Source of the DNA: Halobacterium sp. CBA1132
Lineage (GTDB): Archaea; Halobacteriota; Halobacteria; Halobacteriales; Halobacteriaceae
Direction of reading: 5' to 3'
Length of the DNA: 64,000 bases
NCBI RefSeq assembly: GCF_001485535.1
Contig: NZ_BCMZ01000001.1
Location: forward strand, 1,116,001 to 1,180,000
Below the pieces are notes generated by a model, which worked only from the letters and a program-made list of their open reading frames with translations, was not told where the DNA came from and made no database searches. Positions within the stretch are counted from its first letter, which is position 1, and each line of letters starts with the position of its first letter. Position numbers and translations under genes: made by a program. Positions 24,346 to 55,615 of this stretch are shown in pieces.

Positions 24346-25485
24346 CTACTCGTGGTCCTCGGGGTACGTCGGCGTTCCCGAGAGGCCGTGTTCGTCCATG
24401 CGTTTCGCGCGCAGGAACCGAGCGCGGTAGCGGTTCGCGCCCTCGTAGACGTCCGCCTCCCGAATCTCGTCGGTGCGGCCGTCCGCCACAGCGTCGACGA
24501 TGTCTTCGACTTGTTCTTTCTCTGCGGGCGTCAACTCGAACGTGTACTCGCGGGTCTCCTCGCGTTCGAGCGTCGTGAACTTCCGGGCGGCCGCGATGAA
24601 CAGCGAGCACGGCTCCCGGCACGGGAATTCGCCGTCGCCCCGCGGCACGTCGAGTTCCTCCTCGTCGTTCTCGTCCCACTCGCGGCGCTTCAGGCACTGC
24701 GAGTCCACGCAGCAGGCCTCAGCCGCCCATTCGAGCGCGTCGTCGTCGAGCTGCTCGACGATGCTGTAGATGCCCGACTGGCGCTCTGCGACGTCGTCCC
24801 AGTGGTCGATGTCGAGGGAGCCCTCGCGGCTCGCGGCTCCGTCGTCGCCGCTCGCTCCATTCGTCGGCTCGCTGCGCTCGCCGACGCGCTCCCGGTGCCA
24901 GTTCGACACCGTCGCGGGGTAGACGTAGTCGACGGTCTGCACGAGGTCGCTGCCGTCGAGGTCGACGAACGCCCAGCCGTGCGGGAGCGACGGCGCGGTC
25001 GACAGCGGCCGGTAGCGGCCGTCGTCGTCGTGTTTCACGAGGTGGCGGGCTTCCAGCGGGTCCGTGTAGGCATCCACGTTTTCACCCAGGTCGTCCTCGT
25101 GGCGGACCTCGTAGCGGCGCCGGCCGCCCTCGCTGAGGACCGCGGTGACCGCGAGTTCGCCCCACGAACTCGTGTGACCGCCGCGGAGTTCGTCGTAGCG
25201 CTCGGGGACCGACAGGTCGTCGGCCCCTTCGAGCCATCGCAGGAACGCGCGCCGGGGCGTGTCGTGGCCCTCGACGACGTGCTCCCAGTAGTACCAGTTA
25301 GTCGCGTACGGGTCGTCGGCGCGCTCCCGGAGCGCGTCCTCGCCGACCGTCTTCTGTTCGTCGGGCGTCTCCCAGTGGTAGCCGCCGTCGGTCGGTTCGA
25401 CGACGAGGCCGTCGAAGTCGATGCCGTCCTCGGCGTGCTCGACGAGCGCCGCCTCGACGCTGCTGAGGGTGTCGGCTGCCGACAT
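24346..25485 (-). CDS. DR2241 family iron-sulfur protein, partner of CbiX
   Basis: 379 residues. The C-terminal part carries the Cys set ACCVDSQCLKRREW ... FPCREPCSLF (near residues 250-300), which in the family binds a 4Fe-4S cluster. The protein goes with CbiX in haloarchaeal cobalamin loci, and here its ATG overlaps the cbiX stop by one base. Odd point: around residues 200-225 the chain has an insert (VGERSEPTNGASGDDGAASR) encoded by a palindromic repeat (24813-24886). The core before and after looks intact, so the protein is probably functional. Confidence 0.9.
   Translation of the reverse strand: MSAADTLSSVEAALVEHAEDGIDFDGLVVEPTDGGYHWETPDEQKTVGEDALRERADDPYATNWYYWEHVVEGHDTPRRAFLRWLEGADDLSVPERYDELRGGHTSSWGELAVTAVLSEGGRRRYEVRHEDDLGENVDAYTDPLEARHLVKHDDDGRYRPLSTAPSLPHGWAFVDLDGSDLVQTVDYVYPATVSNWHRERVGERSEPTNGASGDDGAASREGSLDIDHWDDVAERQSGIYSIVEQLDDDALEWAAEACCVDSQCLKRREWDENDEEELDVPRGDGEFPCREPCSLFIAAARKFTTLEREETREYTFELTPAEKEQVEDIVDAVADGRTDEIREADVYEGANRYRARFLRAKRMDEHGLSGTPTYPEDHE
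24813..24886 (-). repeat. Palindromic repeat inside the DR2241-type gene, in frame
   Basis: Two hairpins. CGTCGGC/GCCGACG (24862-24868, 24880-24886) is a 7-bp stem with the 11-nt loop TCGCTGCGCTC. CGAGGG/CCCTCG (24813-24818, 24821-24826) is a 6-bp stem. The same order and the same loop (as complement, GAGCGYAGCGA) occur in the trm5-type gene at 42724, where the peptide is likewise ERSE ... AS ... EG. Confidence 0.7.
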
Positions 25486-41323: not shown

Positions 41324-42120
41324 TCGCTTCGGAATTCTTCGAGCACGTCGGCTGGCGCGTCCGCAAGACCCGCGAGCGCGTCCGCTTCGACGTGGTGGAG
41401 GTCCCCCGGAATCACGAGCAAGTGCAGCGGGTCGCCGAAGTCCATCTCGGCGAGTGTGTCGAGACGGTCCGCGCGAACGGTGGCGTCGGGGGCGCCGGCG
41501 CGCGCGACGACGACGCCGAGCGCGTCCGGGTTCCAGTTGTCCGCGAGCAGGCCGGCGGCGTGGCTCGCGGTCATGTACTCGTCGCCGTCGACGCGCGGGT
41601 GGTCGACCTTGATGTCCAGATAACAGAGCGTGTGGAGGCCGCGCTCGCGGTTCGCCTCGACGGTTTCGACGACCGAACTCGGCACGCCGTCGGCGCCGTG
41701 CGCCCACTCGAAGGGCAGCGTCGTCGCTTTCCCGAAGCGGTAGTTCTGCAGGCCCGTGAGACTGGACGCCGCGGACTCAGCGGTGGGAGCGTGGACCACG
41801 CGCGTGTCGATGCCGCGCTCTTCGGCGCGCAACCGCAGGTCGACGTGCGTCGTCGAAATCATCGTGTCGCCCGCCGTGAGGAACACGCAGTCCCCGGACT
41901 CAGCCGCGTCGAGAATCGGCTCGGGATCCTGTTCGACGCCCGCGCGCTCCCGCACCTCGATGTCGGTGTCGTGGTAGGCTTCGAGGTCGGCGACGTCGGC
42001 GCCGACGAGCTTGCTGGTGTAGAACTCCGCGAACGCGCGGTCGGCGTCGGCGATGGCGTCGGCGCCAGCCACCGTGACCGAGCGCTCGTCGTAGAGACCG
42101 AGGCCGACGAACGTGAGCAT
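41320..42120 (-). CDS. dphB: Diphthine synthase
   Basis: Methylates the modified His of elongation factor 2 on the way to diphthamide. 266 residues, tetrapyrrole methylase-like fold. LTFVGLGLYDERSVT at the N-terminus, YTSKLVGAD, LTAGDTMISTTHVDLRLRA, SSLTGLQNYRFGK and YMTASHAAGLL are DphB motifs. Full length. Its C-terminus (EEFRSD) overlaps the end of the trmO-like remnant by 4 bases. Divergent to the trm5-type gene. Confidence 0.95.
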   Translation of the reverse strand: MLTFVGLGLYDERSVTVAGADAIADADRAFAEFYTSKLVGADVADLEAYHDTDIEVRERAGVEQDPEPILDAAESGDCVFLTAGDTMISTTHVDLRLRAEERGIDTRVVHAPTAESAASSLTGLQNYRFGKATTLPFEWAHGADGVPSSVVETVEANRERGLHTLCYLDIKVDHPRVDGDEYMTASHAAGLLADNWNPDALGVVVARAGAPDATVRADRLDTLAEMDFGDPLHLLVIPGDLHHVEADALAGLADAPADVLEEFRSD

Positions 42121-42202
42121 ACGTCCCGTAGCCGGCGGACCGCCCTATGGGTTTCGAGACGCAAGCGACACGGGTAAGGCCGCGCCCGCCCGACTCTCGG
42201 CC

Positions 42203-43300
42203 ATGTCAGTGCCGTGCGTCCGCGTCCCGACGGACGAGGGCGAAGCCACGCGCCGCCGGCTCGCGGACGAGAACTTGGTGGTCGACGAGTACGCCATCAC
42301 GGCCAGCGACGGCGACCTCTACATTCCCGTCAGCGACGCCGAGGCAGTCCCCGAGGACCTCGAAGTCGTAGAGTTCGACGTTCCCGAGCGCGAGACGCCG
42401 ACGACACCTGCAGAAATACTCGGATTCGAGCCGAGCTACGAGCGCCTCGGTGACGTCGTCATCATCGACGAGGACGACACCGAGCGCGCCCGCGAAATCG
42501 CCGACGCCGTGATGAAGTCGGACGTTCGTGCGAAGACGGTCGTCAACCGCGCGTCGAAGGTGAAGGGAACCGAGCGCGTCCGCGACTGGGACGTCGTCGC
42601 CGGGAACGGGACCGAGACGGTTCATACGGAGTACGGCTGCGAGTTCGAACTGGACCTCGCGACGGTGTACTTCTCGCCGCGCCTCGCGACCGAGCGCCAC
42701 CGCGTCGTCGAACAAGTCGAGCGCGCGGCCGAGCGTAGCGAGGCCGCGGAACGGGCGAGTAGCGAGGGACAGAGTCCCTCGGACCGTTCGAGCGGGCGAA
42801 GCCCGCGAGAAAACGGGGAGGGACGACCCGAGAGCCATGGCGAGCACGCCTTCGACATGTTCGCGGGCGTCGGTCCGTACGCCGTCCCGATGGCGGAGGC
42901 GGGCGCTGAGGTCGTCGCAACGGACATCAACGAGGACGCCGTCGACTACCTCCGGCGCAACGCCGAGCGGAATGGGGTGAGCGAGCGCGTGACCGCCATC
43001 GCGGGGAACGTCCGAGACGTCGCTGGCGAGTACGAGAACTGGGCGGACCGCATCGTGATGAACCTCCCCCACACCGCCGACGAGTTCCTCGACACCGCCG
43101 TCGCGCTCGCCGGCGACGACTGTGTGATTCACTTCTACGACTTCCAGCACGAGGACGACCTGTACACGCCCTGTGAGGCCGCGATTCGCGAGGCCGCCGA
43201 ACCCGAGTACGACGTCACAATCGAGAACGAGCGCACCGTGCGGTCGTACGCGCCCCACGAACTCAACGTCGTCGTGGACGCCCGACTGACGCGCCGGTGA
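42203..43300 (+). CDS. tRNA (guanine37-N1)-methyltransferase, Trm5 type, with repeat-coded insert
   Basis: 365 residues from ATG 42203. N-terminal substrate domain (SVPCVRVPTDEGEATRRRL), middle with VNRASKVKGTERVRDW and the ELDLATVYFSPRLATER motif, then the SAM domain: FDMFAGVGPYAVPMA, VVATDINEDAV, IVMNLPHTADEFL. Between YFSPRL and the SAM loop sits an Arg/Ser/Glu-rich insert of about 35 residues (residues 172-210) coded by palindromes at 42724-42806. It lies in a surface loop by position, so activity is probably kept. Trm5a/b/c class not decided. Confidence 0.9.
   Translation: MSVPCVRVPTDEGEATRRRLADENLVVDEYAITASDGDLYIPVSDAEAVPEDLEVVEFDVPERETPTTPAEILGFEPSYERLGDVVIIDEDDTERAREIADAVMKSDVRAKTVVNRASKVKGTERVRDWDVVAGNGTETVHTEYGCEFELDLATVYFSPRLATERHRVVEQVERAAERSEAAERASSEGQSPSDRSSGRSPRENGEGRPESHGEHAFDMFAGVGPYAVPMAEAGAEVVATDINEDAVDYLRRNAERNGVSERVTAIAGNVRDVAGEYENWADRIVMNLPHTADEFLDTAVALAGDDCVIHFYDFQHEDDLYTPCEAAIREAAEPEYDVTIENERTVRSYAPHELNVVVDARLTRR
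42724..42806 (+). repeat. Triple-hairpin palindromic repeat, in frame within the trm5-type gene
   Basis: Three perfect stems in a row: CGCGGCC/GGCCGCG with the 11-nt loop GAGCGTAGCGA (42724-42748); GAGGGAC/GTCCCTC with loop AGA (42764-42780); GCGGGC/GCCCGC with loop GAA (42792-42806). They encode a hydrophilic peptide with AERSEAAERASSEGQS. The first two correspond in order and loop to the repeat in the DR2241-type gene. Confidence 0.75.
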
Positions 43301-43408
43301 TTCGCAAGGCTTATTTCTTGAATCCGGTTACGGAGAAATGCACGAAGCGTGCCGGTGTCCTGCCGAGTGCAGCGAGGCAGGGTTCGGGACACGAGTGAAA
43401 CGGTGTGT
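43301..43408 (+). promoter_or_regulatory. Leader region of tRNA-Thr with hairpins
   Basis: GCTTATTTC (about 43309-43317) may be the promoter TATA element. The stretch to the tRNA folds into GCACG-AAG-CGTGC (43340-43352) and CCTGCC/GGCAGG with the 11-nt loop GAGTGCAGCGA (43359-43381), a member of the repeat family seen in two coding genes. A 5' tRNA leader with this fold would have to be removed by RNase P. Confidence 0.5.
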
Positions 43409-43482
43409 GCCGGTATAGCTCAGACTGGTAGAGCGATTCCTTCGTAAGGAATAGGCCAAGGGTTCAAATCCCTTTACCGGCT
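43409..43482 (+). tRNA. tRNA-Thr (anticodon CGT)
   Basis: 74 bases fold as a full cloverleaf: acceptor GCCGGTA / TACCGGC with discriminator T, D-arm GCTC...GAGC with GGTAGA, anticodon stem ATTCC/GGAAT around loop TTCGTAA (anticodon CGT, reading ACG), T-arm AAGGG-TTCAAAT-CCCTT. No intron, and CCA is not encoded. A GCAGG-TTCGAAG-CCTGC hairpin follows at 43490-43506. Confidence 0.95.
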
Positions 43483-43489
43483 CTACGCC

Positions 43490-43506
43490 GCAGGTTCGAA
43501 GCCTGC
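43490..43506 (+). terminator. Hairpin just after tRNA-Thr, T-arm-like
   Basis: GCAGG/CCTGC with the 7-base loop TTCGAAG starts 8 bases after the tRNA. It could be a processing or termination hairpin. The loop also fits a tRNA T-loop (TTCGA), so a leftover 3' tRNA fragment is an alternative. Confidence 0.35.
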
Positions 43507-43692
43507 ACCCACGTTCTCTGATTTCTACTCTCCGAGCGTCAGCGTCGTCCAACTTGGGTCGTTCGTCGGACCGGAACCCGGATAGCGGCCGCGCGACTAT
43601 CGGAGAGTCGTGTACACGACCGTTTCCTGGAGCACTTCGGGTTGGGCGGATTCTCGGGACCGACAGTTCGGTGACCCTCGGGGAGTCCACCA

Positions 43693-44097
43693 GTGAACAA
43701 CAAGCGCCACCACGACGAGTACGGTGGCCGGAAGGACCTCCAGAACGCCGGCTGGCAAATCCACAAACGCGACGCCGTGGCGTTCAACTCCGGGAGCGAG
43801 ACGGACAGACACCTCGTCGCGAAGGCGCTGGTCGCGAAGGTGCTGCGTGACCGCGGCTACCGCGTCGACACCGAGGTCGTCAAGGAGGGTGTCGGGGAAA
43901 TCGACGTCGTCGCGTACGGGCTGGACGAGCCGCCGTTCGCGGTCGAAGTCGAGACGAACCCCACGAAGGCAGTCGTCTCGGACAAGGTCAGTCGGTACTA
44001 TCGCGGGGAGCCGTTCTGCGAGTGTTACGTGCTCGACGTCGACGACCTGCCGGATTCGATTGCGGACGCTCGCGAGTGGGTGGAAGCCCAAATCTGA
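43693..44097 (+). CDS. PD-(D/E)XK-nuclease-like haloarchaeal protein
   Basis: 134 residues from GTG 43693. The core GEIDVVAYG (Asp71) followed 14 residues later by FAVEVETN (Glu85, Glu87) has the spacing of the PD-(D/E)XK fold, with E-V-E in place of E-X-K; Lys92 close by may substitute. An N-terminal helix holds GSETDRHLVAKALVAKVL. No methylase or helicase partner is nearby. It lies 210 bases past tRNA-Thr, a usual place for integrated DNA. Function unknown; nuclease assignment is from motif spacing only. Confidence 0.7.
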   Translation: MNNKRHHDEYGGRKDLQNAGWQIHKRDAVAFNSGSETDRHLVAKALVAKVLRDRGYRVDTEVVKEGVGEIDVVAYGLDEPPFAVEVETNPTKAVVSDKVSRYYRGEPFCECYVLDVDDLPDSIADAREWVEAQI

Positions 44098-44246
44098 GGG
44101 CCGCTCCGCGAGATTTCACTGACTCGAGACGCACCTCGAACGCATCACTTCGGAAACTCCGCTCACCGTCGATAGCGTCGGCAAGGGCGAGCCGTGAACT
44201 GGACGCCGCCACCAGTTCCTAAAGCGTCGAGGCACGAGGTGTGGGC

Positions 44247-44966
44247 ATGTCCGTCGCTGGTCTCCTGCACTCGATAGAGGAAGCGCTCGCGCCGGCTCGT
44301 GATGTCGTCCGGCCGGTGCTCTCGGACCATCGCGTGCTCGCCGCGTGGGCGGTGCTGGTCGCGGTGTCGGTGGGCGTGCTGTGGTGGGATTTGCGGCGGC
44401 ACAACGAGGCGATACCGTCGCTGATGCGGGCGGTCTGGTCGCTGGTGGTGTTGTACTCGGGCCCGGCGGGGCTGGCGCTGTACTGGTACGCGGGCCGGAC
44501 GCAGATAGCCCACGATTCGCTGTGGCGGCGCGGAGTGCGTTCGACCGCGCACTGCTACTCGGGCTGTGGCGCCGGCGAAGTGACGGGCGTCGTCCTGCTG
44601 GTGGGCGTGCTCGCCATCGAGAACACGGTCGCGACCACGCTCGGAACGTTTGCGTTCGCGTACGCGTTCGGATACGGGTTGACCGTCGGGCCGCTGCTCC
44701 AAGACGGGGAGGCGCTCGGCACCGCGGTCGCGGACGCGTTCTACACGGAGACGCCGTCGATTACCGTGATGGAGGTCACCGCCATCGGTACCGACCTGCT
44801 GCTGGCGGGCGGCGCGACTATCGGCCAACCGCTGTTCTGGGGCGCACTCGCGTTCTCGCTGTCCGTCGGATTCGTCGCGGCGTTCCCCGTGAACGTGGCG
44901 CTCATTCGCGTCGGGGTCAAGGAGGGCATGGCGAACCCAGCGGAGATGGGCGACGGGGGAGCGTGA
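44247..44966 (+). CDS. DUF4396 membrane protein
   Basis: 239 residues from ATG 44247 (GTG 44241 also possible). Six or so hydrophobic segments. The family motif is seen in STAHCYSGCGAGEVTGVVL (His, Cys pair and Glu, perhaps a metal site) and VMEVTAIGTDLLLAGGATIGQPLFW. DUF4396 proteins have no established role; the conserved His/Cys in a membrane helix suggests metal or copper handling (inference). Its end faces the MOSC gene with 3 bases between. Confidence 0.88.
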   Translation: MSVAGLLHSIEEALAPARDVVRPVLSDHRVLAAWAVLVAVSVGVLWWDLRRHNEAIPSLMRAVWSLVVLYSGPAGLALYWYAGRTQIAHDSLWRRGVRSTAHCYSGCGAGEVTGVVLLVGVLAIENTVATTLGTFAFAYAFGYGLTVGPLLQDGEALGTAVADAFYTETPSITVMEVTAIGTDLLLAGGATIGQPLFWGALAFSLSVGFVAAFPVNVALIRVGVKEGMANPAEMGDGGA

Positions 44967-44969
44967 CAG

Positions 44970-45737
44970 TCAGATTGTCCGCACTTCGTCGCCGACGTGT
45001 AGCGTCCGCCCGCGGTTCGCGTCGGGGACGTCTGCGATGAGCATGAGCGTGTAGAAGTGGTCGAAGGCCTCGGGGTCGGCGAACTCGGGGAAGGTTTCCT
45101 CGCGTTTCTGAACAAACGTCTCGCGGAAGTCCGGCGTGGGTTCGCCGGTGTCGGGGTCGCGGCTGGGGACGACGCAGCGCCCGCACGGGGTGATGCCCTC
45201 GAAGCGGACGCCGCCCGCCTCGAAGGCGGGGGCGTCGGCGCCGACGAAGCGGTCCTCCCAGAACGCGGGGACGCCGGCGACTTCGACGTTCGCGCGGAGG
45301 CGGCGGCGCACGCTGTCGACAGTGAGGTTGTCGAACCACGACGCGACCTCGCGGAGCGTGGCGGTGCTGACGACCGACGGCCCCATCTCGCGGCGGTCGA
45401 CGTAACCGAGTTCGCCGTCGCGTTCGAGCGCGAGCGCCTCGTCGAAGAACTCGGAGAACCACGCCTCCGCCTCGCCGGGGTCGTCGTCGAGGTGGAAGCG
45501 TTCGGTCTCGCCGTCCCGAGTCTCGACGACGAGTTCGCGGGCGTCGCGGTCGAAGTCGGTGTCGAGGTCGTGGACGCGGGCGGTGCGCTTGCCGTTGAGT
45601 ACGTCGCCGTCGTCGTCGAAGAAGGCGTACGTGCGGTCGTCGGCGAGCGTTCCGCCCTCCGTGACGTCGGCGGCGTCGACCTCGGTGCCGTCCAGCCCCT
45701 TGACGGGGTAGACGCGCAATCGGTCGATTCGTGGCAT
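44970..45737 (-). CDS. MOSC-domain protein (mARC-like)
   Basis: 255 residues from ATG 45737. N-terminal beta barrel (RIDRLRVYPVKGLDGTEV, DDRTYAFFD) and C-terminal MOSC domain with the Mo-cofactor Cys in ITPCGRCVVPSRDPDTGE. This is the YcbX/mARC layout, molybdenum enzymes that reduce N-hydroxylated compounds with an electron donor. No ferredoxin domain is fused. With the sulfite-oxidase-like protein at 17819 it is one of two molybdopterin proteins in the window. Confidence 0.9.
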   Translation of the reverse strand: MPRIDRLRVYPVKGLDGTEVDAADVTEGGTLADDRTYAFFDDDGDVLNGKRTARVHDLDTDFDRDARELVVETRDGETERFHLDDDPGEAEAWFSEFFDEALALERDGELGYVDRREMGPSVVSTATLREVASWFDNLTVDSVRRRLRANVEVAGVPAFWEDRFVGADAPAFEAGGVRFEGITPCGRCVVPSRDPDTGEPTPDFRETFVQKREETFPEFADPEAFDHFYTLMLIADVPDANRGRTLHVGDEVRTI

Positions 45738-45838
45738 CACCCGGGTCGACGAGCGGCCGGCTCTTAGGTGTTCGTCCGAACGCGCTCGACTCCGCGTGCC
45801 GTCGAACGTCGTGGTTCGCGTATGCTTGCGCGGGTCGC

Positions 45839-45930
45839 CTGTGTCGAAGCGGACACAGAAGGGCGCTCACAGGTCAGTGGCGTCGTCCCGGACGTACAAT
45901 CTCCCTTATATCCCTTACATTTATTATACT
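45839..45930 (+). promoter_or_regulatory. Promoter region of the fatty acid transporter gene
   Basis: TTTATTATACT (45920-45930) is centred about 28 bases before the ATG at 45954, as for a leaderless mRNA. The stretch 45898-45930 is unusually A+T-rich. Some 70 bases upstream CTGTGTC/GACACAG with loop GAAGCG (45839-45858) forms a 7-bp dyad, a possible operator. Confidence 0.6.
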
Positions 45931-45953
45931 CCTCTGGTGTGGTTGCTCCCGGT

Positions 45954-47381
45954 ATGTCATCACGAGACGCGGAACCACAGTCGGGCGGCAACGCCTTCGA
46001 GCGAATGGGCCACCGGCTCGCCGGCGTCGTCGAGCGCTGGATGCCGAGCCCGTTCCTGTTCGCAATCCTGTTGAGTTACGTCGTCTTCGCCGCGGGCGTG
46101 CTCGTCGAGGGGTCCGGTCCCGGCGAGATGGTGGGCTTCTGGTTCGACGGCTTCTGGGCGTTCCTGAGCTTCGCGATGCAGATGACGCTCATCCTCATGA
46201 CCGGATTCGTCATCGCGTACCACCCGCGCGTGAACGCGCTCCTCCAACGGCTCACGGAACTGCCGCGTACGCCCGGACAGGCCGCCGCGCTCGTCGGCGT
46301 GTTCTCGATGGGTATCGCGTGGGTACACTGGGGATTCAGCCTCATCCTCGGCGCCATCTTCGCCCGCGAGATGGGCAAGACCGCCCACGAGAAGGGCATC
46401 GACGTCCACTACCCGCTGCTGGCGGTCGCGGGGTACATGGGTCTCGGGCTGACGTGGCACTGGGGGCTGTCGGGGTCCGCCCCGCTCGCGCTCGCGACGC
46501 CCGGTAACGACTTCATCGAAGCCGGCGTCGTCGACGGCGTCGTTCCGACGACACAGACCATCTTCAGTTCGTACGCGCTCTCGCTGACCGTCCTCTCCAT
46601 CGTGTTCGCGGCGGCGATGCTCTACCTGCTGTCGCCGTCCCCGAAGCGCGCTCGCCCCATCACTGACTACGTCGACGAGAGTGCCCTATCGGACTCGACC
46701 ACGGGCGGGCGGGAGGGGTCCGCCGACCCCACCCCCGACGGCGGCACGCTGACGCCCGCCGAGCGCATCGACAACAGCCGACTCCTCGGCGGTCTCATCG
46801 CGCTCACGGGCGTCGGGTACGTCGCGTACCTGTTCGCGACCGACGGCCTCGACGCGCTCACGCTGAACGTCGTGAACTTCGGGTTCCTGTTCGCCGGCCT
46901 CGCCATCTACACGCGCCCGACGCTGTACCGCGAGCGCTTCGGGGAGGCCGCCCAGTCCGCCGCGGGCATCATCCTCCTGTTCCCGTTCTTCGCGGGCATC
47001 CAGGGCATGATGAACGCCTCCGGGCTCTCGGAGACGTTCGCGCAGACGCTGCTGGACGTCTCCACGCAGGCGACGTTCCCCGTCGTCGCGTGGCTCGTCG
47101 GCTCCGCGGTCAACCTCTTCGTGCCCTCGGGCGGCGGCGAGTGGATTGTCCTCGGCCCGTCGATTATCGCGGCAGCGAACGACCTCGGCGTGCCCGTCGG
47201 CAAAGCCACCATCGCGTACGCCGTCGGTGACGCACACACGAATCTCCTGAACCCGTTCTGGGCGCTCCCGCTGCTCGCCATCACGGGCGTGAAAGCCCGC
47301 GAGATGTTCGGGTACGCGGTCGCGATGCTGTTGCTGCTGGTGCCGTTCCTCGGCGTCGCGCTGTACGCCATCCCCTACTAG
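45954..47381 (+). CDS. Short-chain fatty acid transporter (AtoE/TIGR00366 type)
   Basis: 475 residues, about twelve hydrophobic segments. Family motifs are ERMGHRLAGVVERWMPSPFLFAI at the N-terminus, MGIAWVHWGFSLILGAI, GLTWHWGLSGSAPLALATPG, LFPFFAGIQGMMNASG and NLFVPSGGGEWIVLGPSI. It likely brings short-chain fatty acids into the cell. Its TAG stop overlaps the stop of the convergent HTTM gene in a CTAG. The start is set by the TATA box. Confidence 0.92.
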   Translation: MSSRDAEPQSGGNAFERMGHRLAGVVERWMPSPFLFAILLSYVVFAAGVLVEGSGPGEMVGFWFDGFWAFLSFAMQMTLILMTGFVIAYHPRVNALLQRLTELPRTPGQAAALVGVFSMGIAWVHWGFSLILGAIFAREMGKTAHEKGIDVHYPLLAVAGYMGLGLTWHWGLSGSAPLALATPGNDFIEAGVVDGVVPTTQTIFSSYALSLTVLSIVFAAAMLYLLSPSPKRARPITDYVDESALSDSTTGGREGSADPTPDGGTLTPAERIDNSRLLGGLIALTGVGYVAYLFATDGLDALTLNVVNFGFLFAGLAIYTRPTLYRERFGEAAQSAAGIILLFPFFAGIQGMMNASGLSETFAQTLLDVSTQATFPVVAWLVGSAVNLFVPSGGGEWIVLGPSIIAAANDLGVPVGKATIAYAVGDAHTNLLNPFWALPLLAITGVKAREMFGYAVAMLLLLVPFLGVALYAIPY

Positions 47382-48838
47382 GCCGAGCAGTTCTTCGCTG
47401 CGAGCCTGACGCGCTCGGCCGGGTCCGGGCCGTCCAAGCGAACCTCCTGCTCGACGATGAACAGTTCGACTGCCGAGATGTCGTCACTGTGCCGGCGGTT
47501 CCACCGAGTGCAGAGGTAGCCCGCGAACTCGTCTGCGACCGCGGGTTCGGCGCCGCGCACGTTCGCGACGTACTTCCGCCAGCGTGAACTCGGATAGCGC
47601 TCCGCTACGTCGGGCGGTTCGTCCCACGTCACCGGCCCGCCGCGGAACGCGTCGACGCTGCCGCCGCCCTCCAGCGTCGCGGGCGCGACGACCCAGAAGT
47701 CGGTGGTCAGCGGCGTCGGTGCGAACATCGACCAGCGCGGTTCCGGCTGTTCGTCTATCGGGCCGGCCTCGACGACGCCCGCAGGTGCGACCGTCGCCGC
47801 GTTCCAGACGAGCACGACGACGAGCACTACCCCGAGCAGGGCGGGGACGACGCGGTTCTTCCACCGAACCACGACAGGAGGAAGCGACGGCACGGCAAGA
47901 ACTGGGAGCGCGCGTTCGACGCGGCGGGCGTACTCTGCGAGCGGTAGGTCGCGGAGTCCGGGCACCTCGCGCCACCCGGGGAGCCGGTCCCAGAACACCG
48001 GCGGGAGGAACGGCAGCAGCGCCGCAATCGAGACGAGCGGGAACACCGCGAGCTGCATCGACGCGAGCATCCCGGCGTGCATCGCGGCGAACAGCGCGGC
48101 GAAGCCGGCGCGCAGCCAGCCGGTGAGGACGACGAGCAGCACGGACGCGGTCAGCGCGGCCAGCCAGACCCGGTCGAACGCGACGACGAGCGCGGGGAAC
48201 TTGGCGAGTGTCTCGCCGAGCAGCACGGTGAACATGTCGAGTTCGAGCACCTGCCGGACGGCCTCGCCGGACAGCCACACGCCACCGCGAAGCTTCAGCA
48301 CGGCGTTCGTGGCGTACACCACGACCACTTGGGCGAGCAGGCCAGTCGTCGCGACACCGAGAACGCGGGCCCGCGGCTCGCGGTCGGCTCTGCGCGCGTC
48401 CACCGACCACCGCTCGCCGAGGGGTGCGAAGACGGCCCAGAGGAACAGCATCCGGAGGAGGAGGTCGCCGCTGTTCAACACGAGCGGATTCCGGACGTGC
48501 AGCGACGCGACGAGCAGCCCGGTCACCAGCGTCGCCAGCGTCGTCCGGTAGCCCACGAGCATCGCCAGCGCGGCCACTGCAGTCACGGCGAAGAGCACGC
48601 CCTGCACCCACGCCGCTCCGGAGAGCGTGTGGACGGAGAGCCGCGCGAGTTCGCCGTACTGGTCGACGAGCAGCGACCGCGGGTAGACGCCGGCGTCCGT
48701 GTAGAACGCCCGGAGGAATCGAGCGCGCAGCGCGAGGTCCGCGAGCACGATTGCCGCGAGCGCGACGCGGAGCGAGGCGAGCGCGCGCGTGTCGACGGCG
48801 AGTCGACGCGCGACGGCGGCACGGAGGCGTCCCGTCAC
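47378..48838 (-). CDS. HTTM-domain membrane protein
   Basis: 486 residues from GTG 48838. About nine hydrophobic segments. The HTTM core is seen in VDTRALASLRVALAAIVLADLALR near the N-terminus, DQYGELARLSVH, LRMLFLWAVFAPLGERWSVDARR and LKLRGGVWLSGEAVRQVLELD. HTTM proteins resemble the membrane part of vitamin K-dependent gamma-carboxylase. The C-terminal 120 residues form a soluble outer domain (RWSMFAPTPLTTDFWVVAPA). Activity unknown. The frame upstream of 48838 is Arg/Thr-rich and overlaps the nuclease gene, so it is not coding. Confidence 0.88.
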   Translation of the reverse strand: MTGRLRAAVARRLAVDTRALASLRVALAAIVLADLALRARFLRAFYTDAGVYPRSLLVDQYGELARLSVHTLSGAAWVQGVLFAVTAVAALAMLVGYRTTLATLVTGLLVASLHVRNPLVLNSGDLLLRMLFLWAVFAPLGERWSVDARRADREPRARVLGVATTGLLAQVVVVYATNAVLKLRGGVWLSGEAVRQVLELDMFTVLLGETLAKFPALVVAFDRVWLAALTASVLLVVLTGWLRAGFAALFAAMHAGMLASMQLAVFPLVSIAALLPFLPPVFWDRLPGWREVPGLRDLPLAEYARRVERALPVLAVPSLPPVVVRWKNRVVPALLGVVLVVVLVWNAATVAPAGVVEAGPIDEQPEPRWSMFAPTPLTTDFWVVAPATLEGGGSVDAFRGGPVTWDEPPDVAERYPSSRWRKYVANVRGAEPAVADEFAGYLCTRWNRRHSDDISAVELFIVEQEVRLDGPDPAERVRLAAKNCSA

Positions 48839-48887
48839 GTTCGGGACTGCCGGCGGACGGCGAATAAGCCTTCCGTGGTTTCGGGGG

Positions 48888-49433
48888 TCAGCCGGCGCAC
48901 GCCCAGAGGCCGGTCGTGTTCTCGCGCGCCCGCCGTTCGACGGCCGCGTAGTCGTCGCGCTGCGTGAACTCGCTGTCGTAGAGGCGCGCGTAGCCGTCTG
49001 CGAGCAGCGCGCGGTTGAACGACTCATTCCCAACGACGACGTACGCCAGCAGCCGGTCGTATCCGCCGCGCCGGTCGCTCTCGGCGTCGAACTCGACGGT
49101 CACGGATTCGCCGGCGAGCCGGTCGATGGCGTACTCGCTGGCGCGCTCTCCCCACGACCGCAGGCACGACCGCCCGGCTTCCGTGTCGGGCACGCCCTCG
49201 AACTCGCCGGGCGAGACATCGGTGTGGACTTCGGGTGTATCCACACCGAGCAAGCGGACGCGCTCCTCGCTGCCGTCCGCGAACCGCACGTCGACGGTGT
49301 CGCCGTCGACGACGTGGACGACCGTTGCGTTCCGGCTCTCCGCTGGCTGCTGGTCGGTCGTGAGCGCGCCGATACAGCCGGCGCTGGCGGCGAGCGCGAC
49401 GACGGCGAGCACGAGGAGTGCGCGTCGGGTCAC
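48888..49433 (-). CDS. Secreted thermonuclease-family lipoprotein
   Basis: 181 residues from GTG 49433. Signal peptide with lipobox AASAGCIG. Staphylococcal-nuclease fold: VVHVVDGDTVDVRF, ERVRLLGVDTPEVH (catalytic Arg/Asp/Glu area), DRRGGYDRLLAYVVV and NRALLADGYARLYD. Likely degrades nucleic acid at the cell surface. Two Cys (SCLRSW and WACAG) may form a disulfide. Confidence 0.93.
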   Translation of the reverse strand: MTRRALLVLAVVALAASAGCIGALTTDQQPAESRNATVVHVVDGDTVDVRFADGSEERVRLLGVDTPEVHTDVSPGEFEGVPDTEAGRSCLRSWGERASEYAIDRLAGESVTVEFDAESDRRGGYDRLLAYVVVGNESFNRALLADGYARLYDSEFTQRDDYAAVERRARENTTGLWACAG

Positions 49434-49499
49434 AGGTGGCGTTCACGCCGCGGCGTGTTAAGGCTACGCAGTCGGACGAAAAGAGGTGTCTGGGAGTCG

Positions 49500-50645
49500 T
49501 TACAGCCGGCGACGCGAGGACGCGAGCAGGGCGGCACCGAGCGCGGCGACGACGGCGGTGGAGATGCCGAATCCGGGGATGGTCGTGCCCGAAGTCTCAG
49601 TCGCGGCGTCCGTCGGCGCGGTGGTTTCGGTCTGGGTCGCCGTCGGCTCCTGCGTGGTGGTCGTCGTGGTGTTCGCGTCGGCGTACGCCTCGGGGTGGAA
49701 CGCCTCCGCCATCTGCGTCATCGGCTCGACGACGCGGGGCGCGGGCTGGCTGATGTGGTTGGCGTTGACGACGACGATGTTCCCCTCCTCGAAGGCGGTC
49801 GTGTTCCGGAGAACAGACCCCTCAGCGACGTACGAGCGACTGTCGTTACCGAGTTGTTCGGGGAGCGCGCTCACGACGAGGAACTCGGGGTCCTGCTCGA
49901 CGATGAACTCCGCGGAGAGCTGGGGGTACGCCCGACTGGCGTTCGCGTCGGCCGCGATGTTGTGACCGCCAGCGCGGTCGATAATCTGACCGATGAAGGT
50001 GTTCGGGCCGGCAGTTCGGCGGTCGCCCATGTCGTAGAAGACGCTGGGCTGCTCCGCGCCGTCGACGGCCGCTTCGACGGTCTCGACGCGGTCGCGCATC
50101 TCGGAGACCGTGGTTTCGGCGCCGCTGCACGCGCCGGTGAGCCGACCGATGGTCTCGGTCTTGTTGTAGATGTCCTCGATGGAGGCGGCCGCTTCGAAGC
50201 GGTAGACGGTGACGTTGGCGTCCCGGAGCTGGTCGACCGTCTCGTTCTTGATGGTGTTGGGCGCGAGCACGAGGTCGGGGTCGAGGCTGATGACCTTCTC
50301 GACGTTCACCGACGACGGGAAGCCGGCGGTCACGACCTCCCGCTCGCCGGCGCCGTCGAGGAAGCCGGCGAACTGGGAGACGCCGACGACCTTCTCGCGG
50401 GCGCCGATTTCCCACATGGTCTGGGCGGCGCTGGGGTTGAGCGTGACGACGCGCTCGGGTTCTTCGGAGACGGTGACGTTGTGGCCGCTCGCGTCACTCA
50501 TCGTGACCGGGAACGAGCACTCGGCCGCCTGTGTGTCGGCGTTCGCGGCGGCGTCGCTGCCTGTCGGGGCGGCGACGCCGGCGGCCGGCGCGACGGCGGA
50601 CAACAGCAGTAGTACAACTCCAACTGCGGCTAAGGACTGTCGCAT
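49500..50645 (-). CDS. btuF: Corrinoid ABC transporter binding protein with PGF-CTERM anchor
   Basis: 381 residues from ATG 50645. Sec signal peptide, then a class III binding-protein fold: [69 protein letters not shown] Thr-rich stalk ([20 protein letters not shown]) leads to [18 protein letters not shown] and a basic end, the PGF-CTERM sorting signal cut and lipidated by archaeosortase. Divergent from btuC through a shared promoter. Iron-siderophore binding is the alternative substrate, but the btuCD homologues favour B12. Confidence 0.9.
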
Positions 50646-50665
50646 GTGCGGACGACGGAGCCAAC

Positions 50666-50680
50666 GCAATAAATATTTGC
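50666..50680. promoter_or_regulatory. Shared symmetric TATA element between btuF and btuC
   Basis: GCAATAAATATTTGC holds the palindrome AAATATTT (50671-50678), centred at 50674.5. The btuC ATG (50704) and the btuF ATG (50645) each lie 29.5 bases away. One palindromic TATA box could therefore serve both leaderless transcripts. The outer arms GCAA/TTGC extend the dyad. Confidence 0.75.
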
Positions 50681-50703
50681 CTAAAGAAACTACGGTTGTC
50701 AAG

Positions 50704-51807
50704 ATGCGTGCCTCCACACGGGCGAGTGCATGGACCACCGGGACGTTCCTCGCGCTCGTCGCCGTCATGCTCACCAGCGCCACCATCGGCCCCGTCGACA
50801 TCCCCGTCCACCGGGTCGCGCTCGCGGCGCTGGACGCCTTCGCAGTCCCCACCGCCGCCACGTTCTACGGCGCGTCCGTCGCGCTCCCCGTCGTCGGCGA
50901 CCTGCCGTGGCTCTCCGTCGACCTCGTCTACACCTCGCCGCTGGACTTCGCTGTGCCCGCCCAACAGCAACTCATCGTCGGCGAAATTCGACTCCCCCGC
51001 ATCGTGCTCGGCGCCGTCGTCGGCGCCGCGCTCGCTGTCGCCGGCACGGTCATGCAGGGGTTCTTCCGGAACCCGATGGCCGACCCCTCCATCATCGGCG
51101 TCTCCTCGGGCGCAGCGGTCGGCGCTGTCACCGCCATCGCGTTCCCCCTCCTGCTCCCGTTCGGCATCCAGGTGTCGGCGTTCGCGGGAGCGCTTATCGC
51201 CGCGTTCGGCGTCTACCTCCTCGCCACCGAGGGCGGTCACACGCCCGTCGCGACGCTCCTGCTGGCTGGTGTCGCCGTCCAGACGTTCCTCGGCGCCATC
51301 ACCTCCTACGTCATCGTCCACTCCGGGGACAGCATCCGCGAGGCGATGTACTGGCTGATGGGCCACCTCCACCTCGCGAACTGGTCGGACGTCGAACTCA
51401 CGCTCCCCGTCGTCGCCGTCGGGAGCGCCGTCCTGCTGGCGTACGCCCGCGACCTGAACGTCCTGCTCGCCGGCGAGGAAGACGCCCACACGCTCGGCGT
51501 CGAAGTCGAACGCACCAAGCGCGTGCTGCTCGCGGTGTCGAGTGTCGTCACCGCCGCCGCCGTCTCCGTCGCCGGCGTCATCGGGTTCGTCGGCCTCGTC
51601 GTCCCGCACGTGATGCGCCTGCTCGTCGGCCCCGACCACCGCATCCTCCTCCCCACGTCGGCGTTCGCGGGCGGCGCGTTCCTCGTCGCCGCGGACACGT
51701 TCGCGCGCGCCGGCCCCGCCGAACTCCCGGTGGGCATCGTCACGGCGTTCGTCGGCGCGCCGTTCTTCCTCTACCTGCTCCGGAACCGGGAGGTGCGCGC
51801 GCTGTGA
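50704..51807 (+). CDS. btuC: Corrinoid ABC transporter permease
   Basis: 367 residues from ATG 50704. FecCD/BtuC family with about ten membrane segments: [49 protein letters not shown] (coupling motifs), [32 protein letters not shown] near the end. Its TGA overlaps the GTG of btuD (GTGA). Works with BtuF outside and BtuD inside. Confidence 0.94.
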
Positions 51808-53021
51808 CCCTCGACGTCCGCGACGTGGACGTGGAACTCGGCGGCACGCAGATTCTGGACGCCGTCAGTGCGGGCGTCGAGGACGGCCGCCTCGTCGGCG
51901 TCGTCGGGCCGAACGGCGCCGGGAAGTCGACGCTCCTGCGCGCGATGAACGGCGTCGTCGAACCCGCCGCCGGCACCGTCCTCGTCGACGACGAAGCCGT
52001 CCACGAACTCGCGTCGAAGGCGGCGAGCCGGCGCATCGCCACCGTCCCGCAGGACACCGGCCTCGGCTTCGAGTTCACGGTCCGCGAGACCGTCGAGATG
52101 GGGCGCCACGCTCACGTCCCGCGGTTCGGCTCCGACCCCGACCCGGAGGCGGTCGAACGCGCGATGGAGCGCGCGGAGGTTGCGCGCTTCGCGGAGCGCG
52201 ACGTCACCTCGCTGTCCGGCGGCGAGAAACAGCGCGTCCTGCTGGCGCGCGCGCTCGCCCAGCAGACGCCCGTCCTCCTGCTAGACGAACCGACCGCGAG
52301 CCTCGACGTGAACCACCAAGTGCGCACGCTCGAGCTGGTTCGCGGCCTCGCCGACGACGCCGACCGAGCGGTCGTCGCGGCCATCCACGACCTCGACTTG
52401 GCGGCGCGCTACTGCGACGAACTCGTGCTCGTCGCGGACGGCCGCGTCCTCGACTCGGGCCGCCCCGAGGACGTGCTCACGCCCGAGTGCGTGCGGGAGG
52501 CCTTCGACGCCCGCGTCGCGGTCGGCACCGACCCGGCGACCGGCGACCCGACGGTCACGCCGCTACCGGACGCCGACGGCGACCGCGACGAGCGCGTCCA
52601 CGTGCTCGGCGGCGGCGACGCCGCGACCCCCGTCCTCCGCGAACTCGCGGACGCCGGCGTGGCCGCGACCGTCGGCCCAGTCAGTGAGGGGTCGCTGGAC
52701 CACGAGACTGCGACTCGGTTCGGGTTCGACGTCGTCACCGTCCCGCCGTTCGCGACGCCCGACCACGACGCAGTCGCTCGCGCTCGCGACCTCGTCACTG
52801 CTGCGGACGCTGTCGTCGTCGCGGGCGACGCGGCCTCGTGGGGAGCGAACGCCGAACTCCGAGACGCCGCCGACGCAGCCATCGTCGTCGGCGACACTGG
52901 GTCGCGGCGGCCCGTCGGCGCGCGCGTCGAACTCGACGGCGTCGTGGACGCGCTCGCGGCGCTCGACGCCGAGTCCGAAGCGTTCGCGGTCGCCGACGGC
53001 GGCGACGTGGCGGACAACTGA
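51804..53021 (+). CDS. btuD: Corrinoid ABC transporter ATPase with C-terminal extra domain
   Basis: 405 residues from GTG 51804, overlapping the btuC stop. Walker [10 protein letters not shown] (residues 35-43), signature [16 protein letters not shown] (near 135), Walker [13 protein letters not shown], and switch His in AAIHDLDLA. The family needs about 255 residues; here some 150 follow. That part starts [18 protein letters not shown] and has alternating strands and helices, [22 protein letters not shown] near its middle, like a nucleotide- or corrinoid-binding Rossmann-type fold. I recall similar long BtuD forms in other haloarchaea; the tail has no known role. Confidence 0.92.
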
Positions 53022-53068
53022 CACCAGTAGCCACGTGGCCTTTGTGTGTCGACGCCACAGTCCTACGC

Positions 53069-55065
53069 ATGAGACGTGTCGTCGCCGTGCTCGCCGTCGT
53101 CCTCCTCGCGACACAGGCTGTCGGCGCTGCCGCCGTACAGGGACCAGTCGACGCGGACGCGCAGCCGTCGAACGTGCACGTCGCGACCGAGCCCGCCCGC
53201 GGGACGGTCGACGACGCGACGGTGCAGACATCGACGATTCGCAAGGACATCGACCTCCACCTCACGCCGTCGGAACCCGGCGCCATCGACGTCGTGGTGA
53301 CGTACGACGTGCCCGACGCCGTGACCGCGCTCCGGACAACACTCCCGTCAGGGGCCGAACACGTCGAGTCGGACTCGTTCACGCGGACGCCCGACGACTA
53401 CGAGTGGGACGGCACGACCGACCCCGCGACCATACGATTCACGCTGCCCGCGAACCAGACCGCCAGCGGGTCGCGCGGCCCGTCAGTGCAGGCCAGCGGT
53501 GACTACTCGTTCGTCGACACCGGCGAGTGGGCGTTGGTCACGGTCCCGCAACTCCGCACGGGCTGGAACTACCGGGGGAGGAGGGGTCGGTGACCATCAC
53601 CGAGGACGTCACCGTCGACGGCGAGGGGTCGACGGGCGGCGAAATCGCGTACCTCGGCCCCGTCGAGGAGCACACGCGCACGGCCAACGGCCAGCAGTTC
53701 ACGCTCGTCGTCCCCGAACACGCCTCGATGGCCGAATCGCCGGACGACGTGCTGGACGCGCTCGGCGCCGCGTCGAATCGGCTCCACGTCGGCGCCCGCG
53801 ACGACGACGTCTGGTTCGTCGCCGCGCCGACGAGCACGGACTGGGGCGTCCGCGGCGTCGAGTACGGCGGCAACGACGCGTGGGTGCTCGCGGACTCACG
53901 CCTCGACACCGCCGGCAACGTCTGGTTCCACGAGTACGTCCACACCAGACAGGCGTTCAACACGGCCGAGAGCGGCCGGTGGACGATGGAAGCCGGTGCC
54001 GAATACTACGCCGGCCTGCTGGCGCTCCGGACCGACTACGCGTCATTCGACGGCTTCCAGTCGCTGCTCTCGCGCGGCGAGCGCTCCCCGTGGCGGGACG
54101 CGATCCTCTCGCAGCCTTCGACGTGGGATTCGGGTGCGAACTACCTCAAGGGAAGCCTCGTGTGGGGGGAAATCGACCGACGAGTCCGCCTCGCGACGAA
54201 CCGCACGGAGACGATGGCGGACGTCCTCTACCAGTTGAACCAGCACCCCGACCGCGTGACGAACGCGGACGTGCTGGCGGCGGTGCTGGACGCGTCCTCG
54301 CCGGCCGTCGAGGAGCGCGCGAACCGCTACACGAACACCCGCGAGGTCCCGGAAATGTGGACGCGCAGACAGCACGCCGCCGCGTTCAGCACGGAACCCG
54401 CGCGCATGGAGTTCGAGGTGCGCGAGTACCGAATCAGCGGGCCGTTCCGCAACGAGACGTTCGCGGAGCCGCCGACGCTGTACGTCGGTGAGACCGTCAC
54501 CGTCGCCGCCTCCGTGACCAACGACGGCGGCCGCTCCGGCGAGTACGTCGCCACCATCGAGTTCGAGGGCGACGTACTCGCAGAAGCGCGCGGCGACCTC
54601 GCGGCCGGCGAAACCGTCGACGTCACGCTCGACGAAGCGGTCGACGCCGCCGGCACGTACAACGTGACCGGCGGCCGGACCACCGCGACGCTAGATGTGC
54701 GAGAGCCAGCGACCGTCTCCGTGAGCGACCTCGCCGTCGACGAGTCCCGAGTCCAGCCCGGAAACGACGTGACCGCGACGGTCACGCTCTCGAACCCCAG
54801 TGACGTGCCCGCGACTGGACCGATCACCGTGACCCTCGACGGCGAACAGGTCGCCACCGTCGACGCGGCGCTCCTACCCGGCGAGAGTGCGTCTCGAACA
54901 GTCACCGTCACTCTCCCGGAAGCCGGACAGTACGAACTCGCCGCCGGCGACGCATCGGTGACGGTGTCCGCCGGCGGCATCGCCACGGGCATCCCCGGAT
55001 TCGGCATCCCCGCCGCGCTCGCGGCGCTGCTCGCCGTCGCGCTGCTCTCCCGGCGTTCGGAGTAG
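53069..55065 (+). pseudogene. Secreted HExxH metallopeptidase with PGF-CTERM anchor, disrupted by a frameshift
   Basis: Two frames make one protein. The first runs 53069-53593 (signal peptide, then a beta domain with DIDLHLTPSEPGAIDVVVTYD). The second, frame -1, continues from about 53575 to 55065: FTLVVPEHASMAE, the zinc motif HEYVH (VWFHEYVHTRQAF) with a later Glu in MEAGAEYYAG, two CARDB-like domains, and [14 protein letters not shown] at the end. The break falls in GGGGG at 53574-53578; six G would restore one frame reading YRGEEGSVTIT. A sequence error or a true mutation both fit. With one added G the protein would be about 665 residues. Confidence 0.8.
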
Positions 55066-55333
55066 CGCCAGCGCGTCGCTCGCGGGTCGCTCTGTTTTGG
55101 TCGAGCACGCGGCTCGCGGTTCACTCCGTTCACCGCTCGCTCGTTTCGTGGCCTCCCTGCGGTCGGCCACGCGGCTCACGCATCGCTTCGCTCCGCGTTC
55201 GCCATCACGTGCCCTCGCGTCGCGAGGGCACGCGGCTCACGGCTCCCGCTGGTCGCCGTTCACTCCAACGTGCTCTCCCTGCGGTCGAGCACGCGTCCGA
55301 TACCGTTTAACGGCGCGACCTGCTACCCGGCGT
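55066..55333. repeat. Cluster of hairpin repeats with 11-nt loops, no gene
   Basis: At least four perfect stems lie in 268 bases. GCGGT/ACCGC, loop TCACTCCGTTC (55116-55136). CGTGGCC/GGCCACG, loop TCCCTGCGGTC (55147-55171). An 11-bp stem CGTGCCCTCGC/GCGAGGGCACG, loop GTC (55208-55232). CGTGCTC/GAGCACG, loop TCCCTGCGGTC (55269-55293). GCGGCTC recurs between them. No reading frame of note. The last part holds the srp19 promoter. Confidence 0.8.
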
Positions 55334-55615
55334 ATGGTCGAGAACGTCATCTGGCCCGCGTACTTCGACGCGACGCTGTCGCGCCGCGAGGGCCGCCGCG
55401 TCCCCGAATCTCTCTCCGTCGACGAACCGACGGTCGACGAGGTCGCGACCGCCGTCCAGCAGGTCGGCTACGACGCGGTCGTCGAACGCGACGTCGCGTA
55501 CCCGCGCCAGCACTGGGAGGACTCCGGTCGCATCCTCGTGAAGGACGCCGACGACGCCGGGAAGTCCGACCTCCTGCAGGCCGTTGGCGCCTACGTGACG
55601 GCGCTGCGCGAATAA
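55334..55615 (+). CDS. srp19: Signal recognition particle protein SRP19
   Basis: 93 residues from ATG 55334. [26 protein letters not shown] is the SRP19 core (NVIWP-Y-D and the GRRVP motif), and the C-terminal [20 protein letters not shown] completes it. It binds the tips of helices 6 and 8 of SRP RNA and helps SRP54 bind. TAA overlaps the gar1 ATG by one base. CCGTTTAACG about 28 bases upstream is the likely TATA box. Confidence 0.96.

Follow-up and report, generated by a model that had tools for sequence, protein, structure and literature searches.

Short palindromic hairpins dispersed through haloarchaeal genomes: a candidate family of structure-based mobile DNA

Why should hairpins that differ in their stems keep the same tip at scattered positions of one archaeal chromosome? 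The question is raised by a 64-kb stretch of Halobacterium sp. CBA1132 (GCF_001485535.1, contig NZ_BCMZ01000001.1), called here the window (G000:C1:1116001-1180000, where G000 is the 3.01-Mb source genome), for which six hairpins with a shared 11-base tip and differing stems had been reported; all six were found at 24862, 42724, 43359, 55116, 55147 and 55269. The comparison covered 800 kb of G000, 400 kb from a sister species, G066, and loci in another 12 genomes of Halobacterium. Haloarchaea carry such dispersed hairpins by the hundred; they move from site to site, even into essential protein genes that stay intact, and selection preserves their fold, all of which suggests an undescribed family of structure-based mobile DNA. 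The explanation that we favour, with a probability of about 0.62, is that they are short palindromic mobile DNA elements of ~45-130 bp, single or arrayed, present throughout haloarchaea, and that it is as folded single strands of DNA that they are recognised, copied or maintained. Each unit would be a hairpin with a C(GNA)G triloop as its cap and tandem G.A mismatches breaking its stem; the elements would enter intergenic DNA and also, with the frame kept, protein genes, and copies in coding sequence would persist where the encoded peptide is tolerated. This explanation is built on the hairpin architecture, its excess over chance, insertions with empty sites, a shared peptide frame and compensatory change; the copying and insertion step, like recognition or maintenance as a folded single strand, is what we infer from them.

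Architecture of the hairpin and its excess over chance

The shared tip had been described as an 11-nt loop. Its kept sequence is real, and an open loop was rejected because four of its bases pair: TCNCTNCGNTC reads GANCGNAGNGA on the opposite strand, and on this GA strand the motif is GA-X-C(GNA)G-Y-GA, where positions 3 and 9 (X and Y) are complementary and covary, positions 4 and 8 form a C-G pair and position 6 is free. The 11 bases are therefore two base pairs, a GNA triloop and a tandem G.A mismatch, standing atop a variable stem. A UNCG tetraloop on the TC strand was also rejected, given the covariation of positions 3 and 9 and the lack of UNCG enrichment (see below). Five of the six window hairpins fit GANCGNAGNGA with complementary positions 3 and 9; in the hairpin at 43359 (GAGTGCAGCGA) a G.T pair replaces C-G.

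In the 800 kb of G000 the core with paired positions 3 and 9 occurs 86 times, in 47 cases with a perfect outer stem of at least 4 bp, whereas just 1 of 33 cores with these positions unpaired has such a stem, and 17 permuted or mutated control cores gave 0-3 stemmed cases each. A motif-blind survey of all 2x2 internal loops in hairpins ranked GA/GA (TC/TC on the other strand) first, with 65 GA/GA plus TC/TC loops observed vs 4 in 5th-order Markov sequence; the inner stem is nearly always 2 bp. Many hairpins carry two tandem-GA levels, e.g. GT-ga-ACGGC-ga-CC(gca)GG-ga-GCCGT-ga-AC. Altogether 81 structures were counted in the 800 kb vs 2 in the reversed sequence, which by extrapolation gives roughly 300 hairpins per genome. 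The equal frequency in shuffled sequence that would have spoken against a selected structure was thus not seen. The reversed-sequence null works well for G000 (2 matches) and poorly at GAA-rich loci (34 against 92, the loci there having been chosen by the model), because the core is nearly mirror-symmetric; mutated cores and Markov sequence were therefore the controls relied on.

Insertions between genes and inside protein genes

Three of the six hairpins lie in inserts that vary by presence and absence among Halobacterium genomes. A 58-bp intergenic insertion between trm5 and tRNA-Thr (43349..43406, plus strand) carries the hairpin CCTGCC-ga-GT(gca)GC-ga-GGCAGG (43359-43381, plus strand) and is flanked by an 8-bp direct repeat, GTGCCGGT (43349-43356 and 43407-43414); it is present in G000 and G093 and absent from G066, G234 and G368. 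Within the trm5-like gene itself (42113-43300), whose product is 70-78% identical to its counterparts in three named Halobacterium genomes, stands an in-frame insert of net 114 bp or 38 aa (42722..42838, plus strand) with four hairpins. It is common to G000 and G066, with a clean empty site in 11 other Halobacterium genomes and at loci L049-L052. Its hairpin A, CGCGGCC-ga-GC(gta)GC-ga-GGCCGCG (42724..42748, plus strand), reads GAACGCAGTGA in the sister genome, a compensatory G-C to A-T change. Hairpin C, TTC-ga-GCGGGC(gaa)GCCCGC-ga-GAA (42787..42811, plus strand), has a stem that is nearly invariant in 27 copies, and hairpin D, CGGG-ga-G(gga)C-ga-CCCG (42814..42830, plus strand), is of a one-base-pair core type. 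The third case is an in-frame insertion of 60 bp or 20 aa (24826..24885, minus strand) in ORF 24346-25485(-), with the hairpin CGTCGGC-ga-GC(gca)GC-ga-GCCGACG (24862-24886, minus strand) and a second one in its computed fold, GC-ga-GCGGC-ga-C(gac)G-ga-GCCGC-ga-GC, on the same strand. In G000 and G368 the ORF exceeds its counterparts in G066, G234, G369 and G093 by 60 bp, the insert in G368 being judged by ORF length and the shorter G066 gene being without it.

The other three noted hairpins belong to an array of ~7 (55066..55293, minus strand) between ORF 53527-55065 and a gene that starts at 55335 and whose translation, judged by eye, is SRP19-like; the array stands just before the promoter-like GATACCGTTTAA of this gene. 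Its length differs among six genomes (G000, G066, G369, G093, G234 and G368), it is missing in G012 and G003, and its sequence recurs in all 13 Halobacterium genomes. Among its members, all on the minus strand, GC-ga-GCGGT-ga-AC(gga)GT-ga-ACCGC-ga-GC (55112..55140) has two levels of tandem GA, and CGTGGCC-ga-CC(gca)GG-ga-GGCCACG (55147..55171) is found again at G000:C1 379885, 379946, 380007 and 752997. The last member, CGTGCTC-ga-CC(gca)GG-ga-GAGCACG (55269..55293), adjoins the promoter-like sequence, and at its site other species have CGTGCTC/GAGCACG or CGTGGCC/GGCCACG stems with three loop variants.

Insertions of this kind are not confined to the window. When 30 clean indels that distinguish G000 from G066 were put through a simple scan, 13 proved to hold a C(GNA)G hairpin whose stem has 4 bp or more, and several other short ones are visibly hairpin pairs. 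Either species may be the one with the insertion, and where predicted coding regions are affected the length difference is in most cases divisible by three. A 106-bp insert used as query found more than 25 copies within the genus Halobacterium, in whose alignment the first hairpin varies and the core after it is almost constant. The 62-bp core, which the trm5 insert contains, is present in 122 of 232 Halobacteria genomes and 47 of 72 genera.

Where copies lie in genes, the GA strand is the sense strand and encodes a hydrophilic peptide, ERSE..., ASSEGRSPSDRSSGRSPREDG. The ASSEGRSPSDRSSGRSPREDG frame is open for at least 160 codons in 24 of 26 copies; the open frame alone is not decisive, because antisense frames are often open too in GC-rich DNA. 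The same reading frame is used inside genes in other genera. Dispersal to many loci, in-frame insertion with empty sites and one favoured frame, the features by which coding palindromic elements of the Rickettsia type are recognised, are thus all found here. At L215 and L216 (~position 1533) the core stands in frame in an ORF of another haloarchaeal family whose flanks resemble, by eye, isoleucyl-tRNA synthetase. A halophilic insertion of 20 aa is known in CysRS, which was sought in the regions analysed and is not encoded there. A second, distant Trm5-like protein of G368 carries the same element (L193, G368:C1:61203-61272) in the corresponding loop ahead of the D-MFAG motif, as though this Trm5 loop could accept insertions repeatedly.

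Two kinds of neighbour were also observed. At G000:C1 179347, 274777, 446208-446381 and 514211 (L017, L022, L031 and L034) many GA/GNA hairpins adjoin a different repeat whose arms are AT-rich, TTTTTAGCGTAGCTTTTTGC ... GCAAAAAGGTAC, and which may be a terminator or a further hairpin element. At G000:C1 183074, 225378, 234159-234386, 589868 and 650483 the hairpins are framed by inverted sequences like the tRNA T-arm (GGATTTGAAC ... GTTCAAATCC).

Selection on the fold and the case for DNA

The hairpins had been taken for a selected structure rather than a copied sequence. The second half of this is wrong, the hairpins being members of dispersed, inserting repeats; the claim of selection is supported, since paired positions covary both in dispersed copies and at orthologous sites. 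Twenty-seven copies, picked by sequence similarity alone and scored against a fixed structure, gave 413 unchanged cells, 13 double-compensatory changes, 3 single changes that still pair and 3 broken pairs; the observed covariation score was reached by none of 500 shuffles, and slid structures had far lower scores. Covariation among 32 hairpins that had been selected by their stems is circular and was excluded from the evidence. Between orthologous hairpins of G000 and G066, counted in both directions, the tandem GA is changed at 0 of 72 positions and the middle base of GNA at 8 of 14, and changes at paired sites come mostly in pairs. These results support selection for structure.

Could such stems arise without selection? 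Template switching during replication, in which quasi-palindromes are corrected, would make and perfect hairpins as a mutational by-product and would account for perfect stems of varied sequence and for a hypervariable hairpin A beside an almost constant core. It would, on the other hand, convert tandem GA mismatches into pairs, yet none of the 72 positions is changed, and near-identical multi-hairpin cores are dispersed in 47 genera, so that this origin is very unlikely. Scarcely credible is selection at the level of the protein, by which the repeats would be kept as salt-adapted flexible loops and the covariation would reflect codon constraint (GAN CGN AGN GAN): the variable positions are indeed third codon positions of the ERSE frame, and halophilic peptide insertions are known (PMC3787623), but most hairpins are intergenic, the third common pair type (C-G) would alter the peptide, and stems outside the GAN CGN AGN GAN motif covary too.

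If the fold is selected, is it a fold of RNA or of DNA? Among perfect hairpins of at least 7 bp, C(GNA)G loops are 8-fold enriched (65 vs 8.3 expected), while the loops typical of RNA are not: GNRA or its complement was counted 11 times vs 12.0 expected, and C(UNCG)G twice vs 2.2. The pair outside the tandem GA is C-G in 54 cases, T-A in 7, G-C in 4 and A-T in none, so that a pyrimidine (C or T) stands 5' of GA in 61 of 65, a context that sheared tandem G.A pairs prefer. In DNA, loops of the d(C-GNA-G) type and tandem G.A pairs of the form 5'-PyGAPu have unusual stability; DNA mini-hairpins are known to favour the former, and sheared tandem G.A pairs the pyrimidine on the 5' side (Chou 1997, cited in PMC7205883). 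At the level of sequence, the hairpins match the C(GNA)G loop and PyGAPu tandem mismatches of DNA hairpins. Because this combination is so stable in DNA and RNA tetraloops are not favoured, we read the fold as one of DNA. Comparable hairpins have been described in the palindromes of Streptomyces telomeres, where the loops are GNA and the pairing is sheared (PMC7205883), and in N4 promoters, where a 3-base loop with a sheared G:A pair is extruded in vivo (PMC4496689).

The stable RNA fragments that the original prediction looked for are not favoured by these counts. Elements selected as hairpins of RNA, whether they stabilise the 3' ends of transcripts, terminate transcription or serve as processing sites, and spread by recombination, would fit the strong RNA folds (z-scores of -3 to -4.5) and the distribution of the hairpins, which are mostly intergenic and somewhat denser in convergent than in divergent gaps. 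This explanation is nevertheless unlikely: insertion also occurs inside coding sequence, a tRNA is the sole match in an Rfam search of the window, GNRA and UNCG are not enriched where C(GNA)G is, and orientation relative to transcription is not significant (16 vs 8 gaps, p 0.15). An orientation bias that appeared strong on raw counts was dropped for this last reason.

The same distribution, intergenic, array-forming and denser in convergent gaps, is that of repetitive extragenic palindromic (REP) sequences, and a further rival explanation is that the hairpins are REP/BIME or PATE elements of archaea, mobilised by a single-strand transposase of the Y1 (HUH) class such as those of IS200/IS605 or the RAYTs. 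Enzymes of this class act on hairpins of single-stranded DNA, the elements resemble their hairpin ends, and haloarchaeal PATEs derive from IS605 ends (PMC3119063). However, the hairpin-rich genomes G072, G198, G231, G135, G085, G023, G093 and G126 are without a match to Y1_Tnp (PF01797), whereas the hairpin-poor G014, G053, G074 and G021 have 3-10 matches each, and three Y1 copies in G000 (locus L107) have no GA/GNA hairpins in the hairpin listing of the locus. With Y1 missing from these eight hairpin-rich genomes yet common where hairpins are few, mobility by a REP/RAYT or PATE route is disfavoured, and we consider it quite improbable.

Several observations weigh against recognition and mobility as folded DNA. 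No mobilising enzyme was identified, and none is encoded by the elements examined. A direct repeat, as the target duplication of a MITE would leave, was seen to flank the tRNA-Thr site only, with none obvious at the other insertions. The stems of hairpin A are hypervariable but paired (L166-L195) when hairpins B and C of the same copies are nearly one sequence; because the A stems vary far more, simple drift with compensation fails to explain the contrast. By a DNA energy model the GA strand is only slightly favoured (-6.2 vs -5.8 for the TC strand), and the sequences fold strongly as RNA as well; since both fold well, folding programs cannot decide between DNA and RNA, and selection for structure might act partly at the RNA level. 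A more specific form of the folded-DNA explanation, which we offer tentatively and consider doubtful, is that the recognition unit is the extruded DNA hairpin and not its sequence, that the mover is structure-specific and neither Y1 nor element-encoded, and that such movement, in a family found across the class, could be a continuing source of the flexible halophilic peptide insertions in essential proteins.

Taxonomic range, known systems and meaning

A covariance model of the simple hairpin, whose counts per genome saturate with only ~33 candidates scored in each, matches 239 of 242 Halobacteria genomes. Genomes from other classes of the phylum yield 1-3 weak matches each, taken as chance except possibly in G296, and the motif is rare elsewhere in the phylum. 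G296, of family f28 and outside the class, has eight matches (best E 4.9e-4). The 4.1-Mb genome of G358, a non-haloarchaeal member of the phylum (family f13) that the model does not list, contains 85 copies of GAGCGNAGCGA vs 5 of the reversed control, either an unrelated repeat or a relative. Within Halobacterium itself G018 is hairpin-poor (4 covariance-model matches; 21 cores vs 13 in the control) and offers a natural contrast for locating the mobilising gene; G128 is another haloarchaeal genome poor in hairpins.

Palindromic repeats inserted in frame are already known from Rickettsia, from a few bacteria and from one archaeal precedent, in an organism that we take to be Methanocaldococcus jannaschii. 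The Rickettsia palindromic elements (RPE), as far as they are described in PMC10969869 and PMC2229807 (Ogata 2000, 2002), are likewise palindromic repeats (~100-150 bp) found in intergenic DNA and in frame in conserved genes, with a favoured frame and variation between sister species. The haloarchaeal elements differ from any RPE known to us in their modular GA/GNA hairpins, their shorter units (45-60 bp) and their class-wide archaeal range. The archaeal coding palindromic repeats of Suyama 2005, as cited in PMC2229807, resemble them by description in having open reading frames that are fused into protein genes, in a different organism. The PATEs and small mobile repeats (SMRs) of Haloquadratum are also short, transposase-free mobile palindromes of haloarchaea that lack target duplications; PATEs, however, have the terminal palindromes of IS605, and SMRs (~80-110 bp) end in inverted repeats (PMC3119063), whereas the GA/GNA hairpins do not track the presence of Y1. 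Bacterial REP/BIME sequences share the intergenic hairpins, the arrays and the higher density between convergent genes, and differ in being tied to RAYT (Y1) transposases, with which the GA/GNA hairpins show no correlation. Closest in structure are the Streptomyces telomere palindromes and the promoters of the N4 virion RNA polymerase, with 3-base loops closed by a sheared G.A pair and variable paired stems (PMC7205883, PMC4496689); these act at chromosome ends or as phage promoters, whereas the GA/GNA hairpins are dispersed through chromosomes. In the open-access papers searched, among which most subscription papers are missing, no haloarchaeal in-frame palindromes and no tandem-GA/GNA architecture were found described, so that priority is not certain. 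A 2026 survey of inverted repeats counted just perfect arms longer than 9 bp (PMC13155455) and for this reason would miss most of these hairpins.

If the hairpins are indeed handled as folded DNA, they would point to a new, structure-specific recombination activity. They would also provide a concrete mechanism for the extra loops of halophilic enzymes, for which the copy in the isoleucyl-tRNA synthetase-like ORF (L215 and L216) is worth linking to the published halophilic peptide insertions, and a natural system in which to study how hairpins extrude at multimolar salt.

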